From assembly GCA_017399145.1 (NCBI GenBank), contig JAFQEG010000033.1, positions 1-60,861 of the forward strand: a stretch of DNA of 60,861 nt, written 5' to 3'. The stretch is from Clostridia bacterium. Its GTDB lineage: Bacteria > Bacillota > Clostridia > Oscillospirales > CAG-272. The position numbers and the translations under genes are program-made. Positions 5,854 to 13,345 of this stretch are shown here, piece by piece. The notes below the pieces were generated by a model that saw only the letters and a program-made list of their open reading frames with translations, made no database searches and was not told where the DNA came from. Each line of letters starts with the position of its first letter. The stretch's first letter is position 1.

Positions 5854-6064
5854 GCTAAACTAACTGAATAAATCGGAGCACGGGCGTAGTTTCTTCAATG
5901 GGGATATTATACCTTTTTTTCGCATCCTAATTTCGAATTTGACGAAAATGCAAATTCCACCAATTAGGATGTTGAGGTTTTCCCCGTTCTGGTTTCGGTT
6001 AGTTTAGCGACAATCGGAGTTTGCGTTTTGTAGAGCGTTTAACTTCGGTTGACGCTCTTTTTTA
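5854..6064 (+). ncRNA. Rod-shaped noncoding RNA, possibly 6S RNA
   Basis: Between its own promoter and its own terminator this 210-nt stretch has no ORF but a strong fold. A perfect 15-bp closing stem pairs 5854-5868 with 5994-6008. Inside are a large unpaired bubble (about 31 bases 5', 8 bases 3'), a stem GGGGA/TCCCC (5900-5904 with 5981-5985), ACCT/AGGT, and a 10-bp stem CATCCTAATT/AATTAGGATG (5923-5932 with 5962-5971). A GNRA-free terminator hairpin with loop TTCG (6033-6057) and a T run ends it. A closed rod with a central bubble is the architecture of 6S RNA, the decoy that binds sigma-70-type RNA polymerase. I cannot align it to known 6S sequences, so the name is tentative, but transcription as an independent RNA is well supported. 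Confidence 0.5.
6033..6064 (+). terminator. Intrinsic terminator of the noncoding RNA
   Basis: GAGCGTTTAAC, loop TTCG, GTTGACGCTC, then seven T. It ends 20 bases before the start codon of the next gene, so that gene is read only by leak-through or an unseen promoter. Confidence 0.85.
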
Positions 6065-6083
6065 TATTTTAGGAGGGGAAACT

Positions 6084-9000
6084 ATGAAAGGAAGACGACT
6101 TTTAGCACTTTTAGTGGTAGTAATGGCAGTATTGCTTCTTGGCTTGTGCGCCTGTGGCGACACTGAGCAGACACCACCACAAAAGCTTTCAGCGCCAACA
6201 GTTACACTTAATGGAGACGTAGCTAGCTGGGAAGCTAACAGCAAGGCAGACAAATTCGAAATTAGCATAGACGGTAGCTTGTCCTATTTGGAAAACACAG
6301 TTACTCAAAAGACATTAACAGATGGACAAAGCTTCAAAATTCGTGCAGTAGGTAACGGTACTACTTACTCAACTAGTGATTGGAGTAATACTGTAACCTA
6401 TGAGGCGGGTACAACACCACCAGCACCAACAGAGCCAACAAAATTGCAAGCACCTGTTGTGTCAATTTCACAAACAGGACTTGCTACTTGGCAGATTGTA
6501 GCAAACGCAGTTAGCTACACTTATAAAATCAATGGTGGCACAGAGATTTCAACCTCTACAACTGCCGTACAATTAACAAACGGACAAAGCATTGTAGTTA
6601 AGGCAGTAGGAAATGGCACAGATTATCTTGATAGTGATTATAGTGCTAGTCAAACCTACGAGGAGGGTACAACACCACCAGCACCAACAGAGCCAACAAA
6701 ATTGCAAGCACCTGTTGTTTCAATTTCACAAACAGGACTTGCTACCTGGTCAGTTGTGCCAAACGCAGTTAGCTACACTTATAAAATTAATGGTGGCGCA
6801 GAGATTTCAACCTCAACAACTGCCGTACAATTAACAAATGGACAAAGCATTGTAGTTAAGGCAGTAGGAAACGGCACAGATTATCTTGATAGTGATTATA
6901 GTGCTAGTCAAACCTACACCGAGAGTACAGAAAATCCAAATCCTAACCCAAATCCAAATCCAAATCCTAACCCAACACCAAGCGAGGCACCGACCTATCT
7001 AGGTATTGTTGCATCTAATCAGGAGCCAACACCTGAAAATTCATCGTCAGGCGTTTTGGCAATGGCATACAGAACGTCGCTTACCTTTGAGGAATCACTA
7101 AGAGCATTCCTAGGAAAGAGCGAAAACGCGCTAGGAGATAGTGAGCCAATTGCTAGTGACTATGAGGTGTATAGCAGAGGTGAGCAGGTTGTATATATTC
7201 AAATATGGCTTGACAACCCTGACCAAAATACAATTCTTTCACTAAAGCTAAACGGTGTAAAGTATCAAGCAGGTGGTGCACTTCAGTCCTTCTTCGTACA
7301 GGACGACGACACATACCTAAACTGCGTTTACGTTGCAGTTACAATTCCACAGGACGCTTATGAGGAAATTTCCTACCAGGTTACCGAAATTGAATACGTT
7401 GAGGGCGCCAACATAAGCCAAGATGGTAAGGCGGTTTTAATTGATGAGGAAAAGGACACGGTGACCATAGGCTTAATCTATGAGGAAACCCTAATTGCCT
7501 CTGAAATGTTAACCACTGACAGAACAGCGTCATCACTATCCTTTAGTTTAACTATTGTGGACGATAGCATAGTACCAAAAATCGGTGGCTGGCTACGTGT
7601 TATAATTTTCAATCAACAAAATGAAATTTTAGGACAACATAAGCTAACAAAGGGCGAAAACACCTTTACCTTTGATAACCTAAGCGCAGATACCTACTAT
7701 TCAGTAATGGCATTTATGCTAGGTGATGCACACGACGGTCAAGGCGTAACCGTTCATAGTATGGCATGGAAATACTTAAGCACCGATTCAGCAATTGACG
7801 TGATTATGGCCAGTGATATCGCATACAACGACCAACAAGGAAAATACTTGCCTGCCATTGAGGTTTATACAACAGTTAACGACCCAACCTTTACTCTTAC
7901 TAAGGTCGAGCTTTACGATTGGGATAGCGAGGAATTAGTTTACTCAAGTGAGTACGATGGTGAAATAGTTATTACCGAGGGCTTGCTTGCCGAACATAGC
8001 TACAATGCACGTGTATATTACAAAAATGCAAGCGATAATGAACAATATTATCAGTCATATATTAGCACTATCAACTTGGATTCACCATGGGTTAACCAAG
8101 AAATGAGCTATGGTATGCTAAACCATGCTATCTTAGGCTTTGACTTTGGAAGTGGCAAGTACAACGTAAGCAACGTAAAAATCCAAATTTGGGACGAGGA
8201 CAGTAAGCAATATATCGCACAGGATGCACTATATCTTTTAGAAAATCCAACTGCTATTGCTGACCTTGAAGCATTGATGGAAACTCTAGATATGAGAAGC
8301 GAGGAATACTACGAGGCTTACAAGAGGTGTAATAGTCTTCGCCAGGCACAAGAAAAAATCAATGAATATTATAGCGATTTAACAATTCAAGATTGGGAAG
8401 CACTTGCAAGTCAGGGTATTTACATTTATGAATACGTGCTAGGACAAGATGATAGCTTCTTTAAGGGCGCAAATAATTATTATTACGTTGTTTTGAGAGA
8501 TTACCACAAGCTTCATCTTGACAATTCATGGCAATACAAGCTCACAGCCGACGTTGATTTTTGCAATGGCAACGAGCCTGAAAATAATCAATTATGCTCA
8601 GGCTATTTTGAAATCTCACCAGCAATCGGCGAGGGCGACTTCTTATTCCCAGACAATGACGAGGATTACAACGATATATTTACAATAGATGAAAATAACG
8701 TTGTATATCTTGAGCTTATGTCAAGGACAGGTGGCGGCTACGAATCTTACGCAAAGATTGGCTATGTAAACCAATTTGTATTGCTAAAGGATTATGAAAT
8801 AGTTAAGGTGCTTTGGTCAAAGACCGAGGAATCAGCCCAAATCAATGAGGAGGAATGGCTACAAAACGTTAAGACTGCCTTGATAAATGGCAACGAGCCA
8901 GAGTCAGCATTCCCACTAGGCGAGCTTGAGCCAATTACCTTTGACCTTGACGACGTTGATTTGTCAGATATGGCACCTGGAAATTATGGCATCACGTTTA

Positions 9001-10076
9001 CCTACATTATGTATGGTGAAACTTACGATGAGGAGCACAAATTTGATAGATACGGCAACCCAATTGAATATAAGATAAAGGGTAAATTGCCACTAGCATC
9101 TATAAATATCAATACCTCAAGCATATATGATTATGGTAATATCGAAATTGTAATTCCAGAAAGCCTAAATTATGGTAACTGGAGTAGCTATTTAGTTGAG
9201 ATAAAGAACCAAGACGGACAGCTAGCTGGCACCTACGACCGTGATAGCCTTTGGGGCGTTAAGCTAACTGCAAATCAATCCATAAGAATTAAGCTAACTG
9301 CTAATGATTATATTGATTACTATACAGATGGCGACTGGAGTGAATGGTTTGTTTGCACACCAGGTAAGCTTCAAGCACCTGAAATCACAGAAAAATCCTA
9401 CAACTCAGAGGGTATGGCAATATGTTGGAATTGGGTTGAGGGCGCTGAAAAATTCATTTACGTGCTAAATGGTGGCGAGGAGACAGAAACCTACGACACA
9501 AGCCTAGGCGGTCTTAAAAATGGTGACACAATTAAGATAAAAGCAGTGGCAAGTGGCGATGTTGACTTTGATGATTCAGACTACACAGAGATAACTCTAG
9601 TTGACGAAAGAACACCTCTTGGTGCACCGGTTGTGACCTTTAATCAGGATTCCAAGTGCCTTGAATGGCAAGCAGTAGCAAACGCAAGCTATTACAGAAT
9701 TTACAATGCAGACACAGGCGAACACCTAACAGAGGTATATGATACATACTATTCAGCACCAATAGGTAGCAATTATAAGGTAAGAGCACTAACTGATGAT
9801 TATCAGTCATATTCACCAAGTGATTATTCAGCACCAGTCTTTTGTGGTGTGAAGCTAGACCCACCTGAAATTACAATTTCAGCCGAGGGAGCAGTAACCT
9901 TCACAAGCTACGACCTAGGCACAAGAGTATATTATACCTACGTTATAAACGACGGAGAGGAAATGCGTTCAACTAAGGCAGACCCTGGAATTACTCTTGA
10001 AAAGGGCGATACCATAAAGGTAAAAATGATGTGTGGCGTTTACGTAAGTGACTGGAGCGAGGCAAAGCAATACTAA
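6084..10076 (+). CDS. Large surface lipoprotein with fibronectin type III-like repeats
   Basis: The 1330-residue protein starts MKGRRLLALLVVVMAVLLLG with a lipobox ending at Cys (LCAC), so it is probably lipid-anchored on the cell surface. The ATG at 6084 has AGGAGGGG upstream; the open frame continues 21 codons further but overlaps the RNA terminator. Three FN3-like units fill residues 32-282, each opening with 'KL.AP.V' and having 'DGQS..I.AVGNGT.Y..SDYS'. Units two and three are almost identical at DNA level. A proline/asparagine hinge (NP repeated six times, residues 284-297) follows, then about 800 residues of acidic Tyr-rich sequence without recognised domain, and three more diverged FN3-like units at the C-terminus (from about residue 1095). 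It probably binds or displays extracellular ligand; no catalytic motif was found. Confidence 0.85.
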   Translation: MKGRRLLALLVVVMAVLLLGLCACGDTEQTPPQKLSAPTVTLNGDVASWEANSKADKFEISIDGSLSYLENTVTQKTLTDGQSFKIRAVGNGTTYSTSDWSNTVTYEAGTTPPAPTEPTKLQAPVVSISQTGLATWQIVANAVSYTYKINGGTEISTSTTAVQLTNGQSIVVKAVGNGTDYLDSDYSASQTYEEGTTPPAPTEPTKLQAPVVSISQTGLATWSVVPNAVSYTYKINGGAEISTSTTAVQLTNGQSIVVKAVGNGTDYLDSDYSASQTYTESTENPNPNPNPNPNPNPTPSEAPTYLGIVASNQEPTPENSSSGVLAMAYRTSLTFEESLRAFLGKSENALGDSEPIASDYEVYSRGEQVVYIQIWLDNPDQNTILSLKLNGVKYQAGGALQSFFVQDDDTYLNCVYVAVTIPQDAYEEISYQVTEIEYVEGANISQDGKAVLIDEEKDTVTIGLIYEETLIASEMLTTDRTASSLSFSLTIVDDSIVPKIGGWLRVIIFNQQNEILGQHKLTKGENTFTFDNLSADTYYSVMAFMLGDAHDGQGVTVHSMAWKYLSTDSAIDVIMASDIAYNDQQGKYLPAIEVYTTVNDPTFTLTKVELYDWDSEELVYSSEYDGEIVITEGLLAEHSYNARVYYKNASDNEQYYQSYISTINLDSPWVNQEMSYGMLNHAILGFDFGSGKYNVSNVKIQIWDEDSKQYIAQDALYLLENPTAIADLEALMETLDMRSEEYYEAYKRCNSLRQAQEKINEYYSDLTIQDWEALASQGIYIYEYVLGQDDSFFKGANNYYYVVLRDYHKLHLDNSWQYKLTADVDFCNGNEPENNQLCSGYFEISPAIGEGDFLFPDNDEDYNDIFTIDENNVVYLELMSRTGGGYESYAKIGYVNQFVLLKDYEIVKVLWSKTEESAQINEEEWLQNVKTALINGNEPESAFPLGELEPITFDLDDVDLSDMAPGNYGITFTYIMYGETYDEEHKFDRYGNPIEYKIKGKLPLASININTSSIYDYGNIEIVIPESLNYGNWSSYLVEIKNQDGQLAGTYDRDSLWGVKLTANQSIRIKLTANDYIDYYTDGDWSEWFVCTPGKLQAPEITEKSYNSEGMAICWNWVEGAEKFIYVLNGGEETETYDTSLGGLKNGDTIKIKAVASGDVDFDDSDYTEITLVDERTPLGAPVVTFNQDSKCLEWQAVANASYYRIYNADTGEHLTEVYDTYYSAPIGSNYKVRALTDDYQSYSPSDYSAPVFCGVKLDPPEITISAEGAVTFTSYDLGTRVYYTYVINDGEEMRSTKADPGITLEKGDTIKVKMMCGVYVSDWSEAKQY
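6411..6926 (+). repeat. Tandem 258-bp duplication inside the lipoprotein gene
   Basis: Two head-to-tail copies (6411-6668 and 6669-6926) are nearly identical in DNA, including silent positions. Each encodes 86 residues, one FN3-like unit plus its TTPPAPTEPTKLQAP linker. The few differences cluster around QIVANA/SVVPNA. Copy number could vary by recombination. Confidence 0.92.
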
Positions 10077-10737: not shown

Positions 10738-11712
10738 TTACAAAACAGCCTTCAAGAATTGAATTGTTCTTGGATTTTTAGGATTGTCGAATACCTCAGT
10801 AGGTGTACCTTCTTCGGCAATCTTACCGTCAGCCATAAGTAAAATTCTTGTGCCAACCTCTTTTGCAAAGCCCATTTCGTGAGTAACGATAACCATAGTC
10901 ATACCCTCGTTTGCAAGGTCCTTAATAAGGTCCAAAACCTCGCCAACCATTTCGGGGTCAAGGGCAGAGGTAGGCTCGTCGAAAAGCATAACCTTAGGAT
11001 TCATATTAAGGGCACGAATAATAGCAATTCTTTGCTTTTGACCACCTGAGAGGGTAGAGGGGTAAACGTTTGCCTTTTCCTCAAGACCAATTCTCTTAAG
11101 TAGCTTCATTGCATTATCAGTTGCTTCCTTAATAATTTCCTTCTTAGACTTAGATTCAATAAGTGGCTTCTTTTCCTTTCTAAAGGCATTACCAATTTTA
11201 ATAAAGAAATTCTTAAATTGTGCACGTCTTAGCCTTTTAACACCTAAGTGAATAGGCGCAACCGTAATGTTTTTCAAAACGGTTAGATTGTTAAAAAGAT
11301 TGAATTGCTGGAAAACCATGCCGATTTTCTCTCTGTGCTTATTGATATCAACCTTTAGGTCGGCTAAATCCTCGCCGTCAAATATGATAGACCCACCGCT
11401 AGGGTCCTCCATACAGTTAAGACAACGTAAAAAGGTACTCTTACCACTACCAGAGGGACCAATAACAACAACCTTTTCACCGGGGTAGATATTTGTTGAA
11501 ATATCATTTAAAACAACTAGGTCCCCAAAGCTTTTTACAAGATTTTTAACCTCGATAAGTGGATTTGAATAATCAATTTCGATAGCTTTTTCCTTTGCTA
11601 CCTCTTCAAATTTTTCCTCGATTTTTTCTTCAACCTTTTCTTCAACTACTTCTAAATTTTTAGTGGGCTTTACAACAGGTGTAAAATAAACTACGTTACG
11701 CTTTTTTTTCAT
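10738..11712 (-). CDS. Amino acid ABC transporter ATP-binding protein with extra segments
   Basis: The ATPase of a polar amino acid uptake system (GlnQ/ArtP type). Walker [10 protein letters not shown] (residues 85-93), Q-loop VFQQFNLF, signature LSGGQ (221), Walker [13 protein letters not shown] and switch histidine VTHEM are intact. Two features are unusual. There is a 50-residue N-terminal extension rich in Glu and Lys that should form a helix or coiled coil before the normal start PLIEVKNL. There is also a basic insertion of about 35 residues (roughly 160-195, [10 protein letters not shown]...[14 protein letters not shown]) in the helical domain, where standard GlnQ proteins have a few residues. 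The ATG at 11712 has GGGGG upstream and overlaps the permease gene by 17 bp, implying translational coupling; an earlier in-frame start at 11757 is less likely. Confidence 0.93.
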
Positions 11713-12433
11713 TTTTCTTACCCCCGTTTCTGTCACTCTTAGAAAGTACCTTTTCAAGAATTCTAATAAGCTGAGTGATTAAGAATATCAAAATAATATA
11801 GCAAATCGCCATAAATAGGAACGGCACCATAGGCTCGTAGTTGTTTTGACCTATCTTGTTAAGTGCAACGTATAAGTCGGCTGCACCAACAAAGCTGATA
11901 ACAGAGGTTTCCTTAATCAAGGAAATAAACTCATTACCAAGAGAGGGCAAAATATTTTTAATAGCTTGAGGCACAACGAATTTCATCATAGTAGTAGGGT
12001 AGCTAAGACCAAGGGCACGACCTGCCTCCATTTGACCCACGTCAACGGAATTGATACCACCACGCATAACCTCGGATACGTAAGCACCACTATTCAAGCC
12101 AAAGATTACAACACAGACGTTTTCAGAGGAAATTCTACCAAGACCAATAAGTGGTAAAATAACAAAGTAGCCTACAAGTAGCTGTACTACAATAGGTGTA
12201 CCTCTAAAAAATCCAACGTAAAGCGCACAGATTTTATCAAGAATCCTTGGCAAAAGCTTATACTTAGGCATAACACGTACAGATGCAATAATAGTACCGA
12301 TAACAATACCAATTAAAAGACCTAAAATTGCAATCTTAAGAGTATTACCAAGACCCTTGATAACCTCTTTATAGCCATCATCATAAATAAAGCTTTCTAT
12401 AAATCTGTTAATTTTGCTTCCAAAATTACCCAT
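11696..12433 (-). CDS. Amino acid ABC transporter permease (HisM/GlnP type)
   Basis: The 245-residue inner membrane protein has the GlnP/HisM layout: [16 protein letters not shown] near residue 25, [11 protein letters not shown], and the EAA loop [17 protein letters not shown] followed by [26 protein letters not shown], which contacts the ATPase. About five membrane helices are visible. ATG at 12433 is preceded by AAAGGA; the open frame starts five codons earlier with TTG. It lies between the binding protein and ATPase genes and overlaps the latter. Confidence 0.95.
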
Positions 12434-12469
12434 AAATTTTCCTTTCAAAAAGCTATAATCATAACAATT

Positions 12470-12489
12470 CCTCGCCCATTTGGGCGAGG
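12470..12489 (-). other. Intercistronic hairpin between binding protein and permease genes
   Basis: CCTCGCCC, loop of four, GGGCGAGG forms a perfect 8-bp GC-rich stem without a good T run. In ABC operons such hairpins usually protect the upstream binding-protein mRNA from 3' decay, giving more binding protein than permease; that role is inferred here. Confidence 0.7.
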
Positions 12490-12496
12490 AAGAGAA

Positions 12497-13345
12497 TTAG
12501 TTATTCATTGATTTTACAATGATTTGTGCAGGACCCTCGTCAACTACAACGAAGTCGATTTGTCCGTTTACAAGTGCTTGTGCTGCACTTACAGCAGAGT
12601 CAAAGCCCTTAGCTGTAACAGGGAAGCCGTCAAAGCCCCAGTCAGCGTCGCCCTCAACGTAAAGACCACCGGTTGTACCATTTTGGTAACCGATAATTAT
12701 ATTGTTGTCCATACCATTAAGAATAGCCTCAACCTGAGCAGCAGTTGTGCACTCAGCAAAGGTTGTGTCGCCTGCCTTAATAATGATTACCTGTGAAGCA
12801 TTGTAGTAGGTGTCAGAGAATGTAACCTGCTCCTCACGGTCAGGTGAAACTGTAAGACCTGCCATAACGATGTCAGCCTTACCTGTTTCAACAGCTGTCA
12901 AAACTGCATCGAAGTTCATGTCCTTAATAACAAGCTCAGCATTCATTTTTTCAGCAATAAGCGCTGCGATTTCAATATCAATACCACAGTACTTGTCGCC
13001 AATCTTGTATTCGAATGGTGAGAATGGTGTGTTTGTAGCAACTACAAGCTGATTTTTGCTTGCGTCCTCAGTACCAGCTGGGAATGTTTTAATGTTAGCT
13101 GTGTCGCCAGAGAAGTACTTGTTTACAATCTCGTTAAGCTTGCCATTAGCCTTAATCTCAGCTAAAACTTCGTTTACAGTAGCTAAAAGCTCTGCATCGT
13201 TTTTGTTTACGCCGTAAGCGTATTGCTCGTCAGTCAATTTGATTTTTACATAGTCTACAACGTCCTGTTGTCCACAAGAAGCGAAGCAGATAACTGAAGA
13301 AAGAATCATAATTGCAACGAGTGCAATTGAAAGAATTTTTTTCAT
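12497..13345 (-). CDS. Amino acid ABC transporter substrate-binding lipoprotein, apparently circularly permuted
   Basis: A type 2 periplasmic binding protein with a lipoprotein signal (lipobox FASC, Cys 24). The core (residues 99-282) has LVVATNTPFSPFEY, GIDIEIAALIAEKM, FDAVLTAVETGKADI and AGLTVSPDREEQVTFS as in GlnH/ArtJ proteins. It stops at DFVVVDEGPAQIIVKSMNN, just where family members normally continue with a strand and a final helix reading roughly 'YGIAV.K.N.ELL..VN..L.E...NG....I..KY'. That missing segment is instead found at the mature N-terminus, residues 32-78, as KIKLTDEQYAYGVNKNDAELL and then VNEVLAEIKANG and EIVNKYF. This is best read as a natural circular permutation. The gene opens the ABC operon, behind a promoter and Arg-box-like palindromes. 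Confidence 0.93.
   Translation of the reverse strand: MKKILSIALVAIMILSSVICFASCGQQDVVDYVKIKLTDEQYAYGVNKNDAELLATVNEVLAEIKANGKLNEIVNKYFSGDTANIKTFPAGTEDASKNQLVVATNTPFSPFEYKIGDKYCGIDIEIAALIAEKMNAELVIKDMNFDAVLTAVETGKADIVMAGLTVSPDREEQVTFSDTYYNASQVIIIKAGDTTFAECTTAAQVEAILNGMDNNIIIGYQNGTTGGLYVEGDADWGFDGFPVTAKGFDSAVSAAQALVNGQIDFVVVDEGPAQIIVKSMNN

Follow-up and report, generated by a model that had tools for sequence, protein, structure and literature searches.

Predicted circular permutation of a family-3 amino-acid-binding lipoprotein from a Clostridia bacterium, and its apparent recurrence among relatives

The stretch of DNA analysed here, referred to as the window, is the 60,861-nucleotide contig JAFQEG010000033.1 of a Clostridia bacterium. 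On its minus strand it carries a gene for a substrate-binding protein (SBP) of the ATP-binding cassette (ABC) importers, with a permease and an ATPase of polar amino-acid type present beside it. The segments of the predicted lipoprotein are in circularly permuted order, as follows:

12497..13345, minus strand: circularly permuted family-3 amino-acid-binding lipoprotein of 282 amino acids (aa), in the order tail, lobe-1 core, lobe 2 (from the sequence, profile and structure matches)
13274..13345, minus strand: signal peptide and lipobox FASC, with predicted lipidation at Cys24 (from the sequence and a lipobox rule)
13106..13252, minus strand: transposed C-terminal tail, residues 32-80, which in canonical proteins forms the second hinge strand plus the final two helices of lobe 1
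13055..13105, minus strand: new 17-residue linker between the old C- and N-termini, in lobe 1
12773..13054, minus strand: canonical N-terminal core, residues 98-191, comprising lobe 1, the first hinge and the first lobe-2 strand
12500..12772, minus strand: remainder of lobe 2, residues 192-282, now the C-terminus

The canonical order, lobe-1 core followed by lobe 2 and then the tail, is not found in the window protein. In the translation of 12497-13345(-) the last core residues, VVVDEGPAQIIVKSMNN, run straight into the stop codon, where the core ends, and the piece downstream of the lipobox Cys24 is DYVKIKLTDEQYAYGVNKNDAELLATVNEVLAEIKANGKLNEIVNKYF. The first-pass annotation had proposed that a C-terminal piece was moved to the mature N-terminus, with no second copy and no leftover coding after the stop and a hairpin next; no such copy or coding was seen, the hairpin lies at 12468-12491, and the move itself is borne out by the translation, by split database matches and by relatives. 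The Pfam match to PF00497 (117.8 bits, against a gathering cut-off of 26.4) is divided over two stretches, the better of which pairs residues 100-196 with profile positions 1-98. In phmmer searches against the PDB, AncQR is matched in two separate pieces, its residues 11-177 by residues 99-279 of the window protein and its residues 190-232 by residues 37-79; the corresponding pairs for 6svf are 94-277 with 6-173 and 37-79 with 186-228, the latter at an i-Evalue of 0.00038. Residues 37-79 correspond to the last 43 residues of these canonical SBPs.

The window protein shares its segment order with relatives at 88% and 84% identity, which rules out an assembly error. A broken or chimeric gene, be it an assembly error or a pseudogene, that has lost its true C-terminus might be suspected in the window's genome, which is 76% complete and in 44 contigs. 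However, the order is shared not only by these two relatives but by 55 distinct proteins, and both the binding residues and the operon are intact, so that this explanation deserves practically no credence; the recurrence of the order in relatives led us to reject it. The ligand contacts in family 3 are, we assume, the Arg of the TVSPDR stretch and the last lobe-2 Asp; R170 and D269 are invariant across 10 proteins of the window's topology (type A, below). The window's genome has one clear family-3 SBP, with two further matches at E 0.005 and 0.06, and the genomes of the two nearest named relatives originate from roe deer colon and rectum.

A single-sequence AlphaFold prediction of the window protein (pLDDT 36) was replaced by a model from 15 aligned rows, which is one confident unit (pLDDT 94.3, pTM 0.87) with the predicted two-lobed type II fold. 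When the core of this model was superposed on GlnBP, as proposed in the first-pass annotation, residues 99-282 fell on GlnBP 4-171, ending where the missing tail would come next. In canonical type II binding proteins both termini lie in lobe 1. The lobe boundaries, which we take from GlnBP, were mapped onto the window protein via the superposition, and the new termini are then in lobe 2. The earlier placement of type II termini in the C-terminal lobe was therefore wrong; the relocated lipid anchor claimed with it does follow from the topology. The circular permutation is supported by the sequence, the structure prediction and dozens of relatives.

To place the protein among its relatives, 57 related genomes were searched, 49 of which had a match at E 1e-5 or better, and the open reading frames (ORFs) of 134 loci, hand-picked to enrich permuted forms, were scanned with three segment profiles. 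This gave 132 distinct SBP frames, of which 55 have the order tail-N-C (type A), 41 have the order C-tail-N (type B, in which lobe 2 comes first, then the tail and then the lobe-1 core), 22 have the canonical order N-C-tail, and the other 14 are arrays or partial frames. Type B has two cut points. The 11 B2 proteins end 21-23 residues, or one helix, past the core profile, while 26 of the 30 B1 proteins end 0-4 residues past it, one ends 10 residues past it and three continue into a permease. In the examples inspected, type A ends after the last lobe-2 helix and B1 right after the first lobe-2 strand. The single case described in the first-pass annotation is real in its order, but belongs to a set of permutations that recur among the relatives.

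Tandem units are also found. Canonical tandems are fused to a permease in L065 and L066, as are B-frame tandems, some incompletely read, in L037, L038 and L117-L124, and single permuted units are fused to a permease in L062 (A) and in L095, L100 and L111 (B1). Different topologies can adjoin one another, A and B2 in L008 and L021, B1 and an array in L123, and A and canonical in L011 and L086 (where the second SBP was read as core and tail only). The duplication and trimming proposed in the first-pass annotation is in keeping with these canonical and permuted tandems and mixed loci, although a search of the 132 distinct frames for an intermediate, a single unit carrying the tail at each end, found none. 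In three of the loci (L117, L118 and L120) the tandem permuted SBP units, permease and ATPase lie in one polypeptide of 1145-1210 aa, nearly a whole importer, and four core matches accompany one permease in L038 (1132-5034, 1301 aa) and L119 (617-4288, 1224 aa).

The wider distribution was examined with a doubled query, which aligns any rotation as one piece, so that the aligned range gives the cut site. Since the query was of type A, the ranking is biased toward type A everywhere, and the E limits differed among the three collection searches. In the order, 245 of 295 genomes had a match, and the 150 matches listed comprise 24 A, 25 B, 6 arrays and 95 canonical. For the class (145 of 196 genomes) the 150 listed are 107 canonical, 21 A, 10 B and 5 arrays, with 7 that are partial or of another kind. 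In both cases the 150 were taken from a larger number of matches. In the phylum sample, where 89 of 179 genomes matched at E 1e-20 or better, 96 of the 101 matches listed are canonical, the rest being one A, which is the window's own protein, one B, one partial match and two spans longer than 300; permutants thus look concentrated in the window's class. Among the matches listed for order, class and phylum, no complete unit had its cut in lobe 1. With the lobe limits as we take them, lobe 2 contains all three of the cut sites. With the same limits, a rough null of ∼9 loops per lobe (DSSP of the model) gives five independent cuts a chance of ∼3% of all falling in lobe 2, which is only suggestive of a bias beyond chance. 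Among viral contigs, two scans with type A queries gave no usable relatives, nor did one whose query was a single canonical protein; a scan with a canonical alignment gave one complete canonical SBP and one partial unit. One contig of the viral collection (L142, 204-1775) encodes a C-terminal SBP-like unit in which the lobe-1 core passes almost directly to the tail, without most of lobe 2. In a plasmid search 142 of 72,556 records matched, none with a place covering 80% of the window protein.

To estimate the number of origins, the segments were put back in one order before trees were built. The careful tree, which is unrooted, holds 64 representatives, near-copies having been thinned and the B-frame array units, L011_N and L123_B1 dropped before the count. 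It requires 7 changes among A, B1, B2 and canonical, or 6 if only permuted and canonical are told apart. Taken singly, label A needs 4 changes (starred branches force 3) and B1 needs 3 (2 forced). B2 forms one clade (99/98) nested in an A + B2 clade (100/99), and so seems to have arisen by permutation of an already permuted protein. In a quick tree of 113 representatives, including array units, six labels took 14 changes. Approximately unbiased (AU) tests reject a single clade both for the permutants as a whole (p 1.7e-86) and for B1 (p 5.8e-46). The ATPase partners, described below, suggest a single transporter lineage for A-main, B2 and the L021/L025/L030 group, which leaves a conservative count of two origins each for A and B1, plus one secondary change from A to B2. 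The canonical form was taken to come first because it is near-universal in the phylum sample.

We consider it very likely that the gene product is a functional type II receptor of family 3 that delivers amino acids to the neighbouring permease and ATPase, its chain circularly permuted by duplication and trimming, and that such permutation is recurrent in the class. Several points weigh against this. A + B2 as one clade is rejected at an AU p of 0.0104, yet p is 0.057 without the long-branched L021 row, and the origin count of type A is less firm than the others. One SBP, in L084, has no permease or ATPase match beside it. A solved structure of a permuted family-3 SBP was not found when the PDB was searched by sequence with A, A-second, B1 and B2 proteins, which gave 110, 102, 163 and 81 matching sequences, the best 60 of each being considered; within these, no single-domain chain had a best stretch that crosses from the tail to the core, and in the best 60 of the 110 the sole chain with one is the tandem 6h30. 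Furthermore, gene conversion between paralogues could inflate the origin count. If one ancient permutation had later been overwritten from canonical paralogues, the recurrence would be only apparent; separate clades do have their cuts in the same loops (behind the last helix of lobe 2 in A, directly behind its first strand in B1), and permuted genes can lie next to canonical ones, as in L011 and L086, which would ease exchange. Against such overwriting stand the AU rejections of single clades, the differing cut points of A and B1, the distinct B2 cut nested in A, and the trees of the single segments, each of which still has 11-13 four-state changes, though short segments are poorly resolved. 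On balance we regard overwriting as unlikely.

The lengths of tethers and linkers bear on a further objection. The tether, defined as the residues from the lipobox Cys to the first profile position, was obtained under a permissive lipobox rule, with three proteins giving no lipobox call. Its median is 9 for A (n=54), 2 for B2 (n=11), 14 for B1 (n=28) and 16 for canonical proteins (range 3-64, n=22). In rank tests against the canonical set, which ignore relatedness, A (p 0.005) and B2 (p 4e-6) have shorter medians and B1 does not differ (p 0.94); by eye, the B1 tether includes a helix of roughly ten residues. The linkers from tail to core, 13-27 residues in A, 16-31 in B2 and 6-18 in B1, look by eye like those within arrays. 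A type A tail on such a linker might be swapped between chains, giving a dimer or lattice and not a permuted monomer, which also counts against the permuted receptor. TmArgBP is reported to swap its C-terminal helix between chains and to dimerise in this way (PMC4022495; PMC9402392). It shares with the window protein a C-terminal helix that acts as a detachable piece, whereas its swap involves no covalent reordering. The confident monomer model and the single permuted units fused to a permease argue against swapping, and in the model the linker seems long enough for closure within one chain. A swapped assembly is, in our view, quite improbable.

On the permuted-receptor reading, a tandem duplication, or a tandem-SBP array like those in relatives, would have placed a tail ahead of a core, and trimming would have left one complete unit with its new ends in lobe 2. 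The mature chain starts with the canonical tail (second hinge strand and two helices), passes through the 17-residue linker to the canonical N-terminus and ends after the last lobe-2 helix. The Venus-flytrap fold is probably unchanged, as is the binding of amino acids, and the receptor should still close on its ligand, since it keeps its hinges and binding residues. Because all three cut sites are in lobe 2, the lipid, or a fused permease, would now be attached to lobe 2 instead of lobe 1, which may alter the way the receptor is poised above the transporter. Permutation would have happened about five or more times in the window's class, with new ends in lobe 2 in every case seen. A more tentative, rather doubtful proposal is that selection has repeatedly favoured permutation in the class's amino-acid importers. 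Separate lineages would have cut the same lobe-2 loops, one lineage having been permuted a second time, and the lipid anchor or fused permease, now on lobe 2 and in A and B2 almost or entirely without a tether, would hold the receptor in a fixed posture over the transporter. If so, tether position would be a tunable part of ABC importers.

Like the canonical family-3 SBPs (GlnH/GlnBP, ArtJ, TmArgBP, AncQR), the window protein has PF00497, the predicted type II fold, the binding residues and the permease and ATPase partners; it differs in segment order and in the anchor, here on lobe 2 and there on lobe 1. Proteins of the GlnPQ type (SBP-SBP-permease) also have tandem family-3 units, 6h30 aligning from the SBD1 tail into SBD2, and similar arrays occur in relatives. 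However, their units are in the canonical frame, whereas here there are single permuted units or arrays of lobe 2, tail and lobe 1, and in the window SBP and permease are separate ORFs. Natural circular permutations are usually viewed as single ancient events inferred from remote structures. A natural permutation of a membrane-tethered SBP is described for the glucose-binding lipoprotein TpMglB-2 (Tp0684) and relatives, with some homologues in Gram-positive gut bacteria, and its authors raise anchoring as a possible reason (PMC4990184). That protein has a type I fold, a sugar ligand and one permutation that moves N-lobe strands, whereas here the fold is type II, the family binds amino acids, and there are three cut points and several apparent origins. 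The window protein falls outside the TpMglB-2-like 'Type Ic' group (type I, permuted N lobe), since its PF00497 score and its model match type II amino-acid SBPs. Glycine-betaine- and molybdate-binding proteins are type II. They are related by circular permutation, but are remote proteins (<24% identity) recognised by structure (PMC2395249), unlike the permuted and canonical forms here, which belong to one sequence family at roughly 30-50% identity.

No report of a permuted family-3 amino-acid SBP was found in the open-access literature, subscription papers being mostly outside the search and broad queries covering best matches only; a term search in the text of the OpuA paper (PMC2861598) gave no hits. 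The new part is the recurrence and the three coexisting permuted topologies; SBP permutation itself was already known in other families. Since these topologies, the canonical form and arrays coexist in one family, and sometimes at one locus, the order of events, the folding cost and the effect of tether position become testable with natural pairs. In addition, annotation that is blind to domain order can hide rearranged receptors, and natural permutants at loops accepted by evolution are useful for amino-acid sensors.

The remaining features of the operon are:

12468..12491, minus strand: GC-rich hairpin between the SBP stop codon and the permease
11696..12448, minus strand: amino-acid ABC permease (BPD_transp_1; HEQRo_perm_3TM)
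10738..11757, minus strand: GlnQ-like ABC ATPase with a basic insert between the Q-loop and LSGGQ

The insert in the window ATPase is ∼33 residues long (about 11140-11240, minus strand), and is recognised as a Q-loop to LSGGQ spacing of 76-96 instead of 53. Amongst the readable ATPase partners it is present in 28/37 A-main, 6/8 B2 and 2/2 A-third, and in 0/20 canonical, 0/28 B1 and 0/7 A-second (0/55 together); 7 A-main, 3 B2, 1 A-third, 2 canonical, 2 B1 and 1 A-second ATPases were unreadable or not found. The other A-main ATPases have spacings of 60-64 (5) or 53 (4), and 2 B2 also have 53. As some A-main members are without it, the insert is not needed for permutation; it could contact the membrane or the coupling helices. 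FNLFNN is found in 11 of 15 ATPases inspected (A-main, B2, A-third) and FNLFPH in the other 4. The window ATPase also has a charged N-terminal extension of ∼60 residues ahead of the nucleotide-binding domain.

The hairpin at 12468-12491 is very stable (dG -21.1 kcal/mol for a 50-nt stretch, z -5.2), has no strong T-run and is a candidate for setting the SBP:permease ratio. Control of subunit ratio by hairpins is described for ABC operons of cellulolytic Clostridia (PMC9045158). Elsewhere in the window, a plus-strand ORF at 6021-10076 encodes a lipoprotein-like product of 1351 aa, in which segments are repeated (APVVSISQTGLATW...VKAVGNGTDYLDSDYS) close to the N-terminus.
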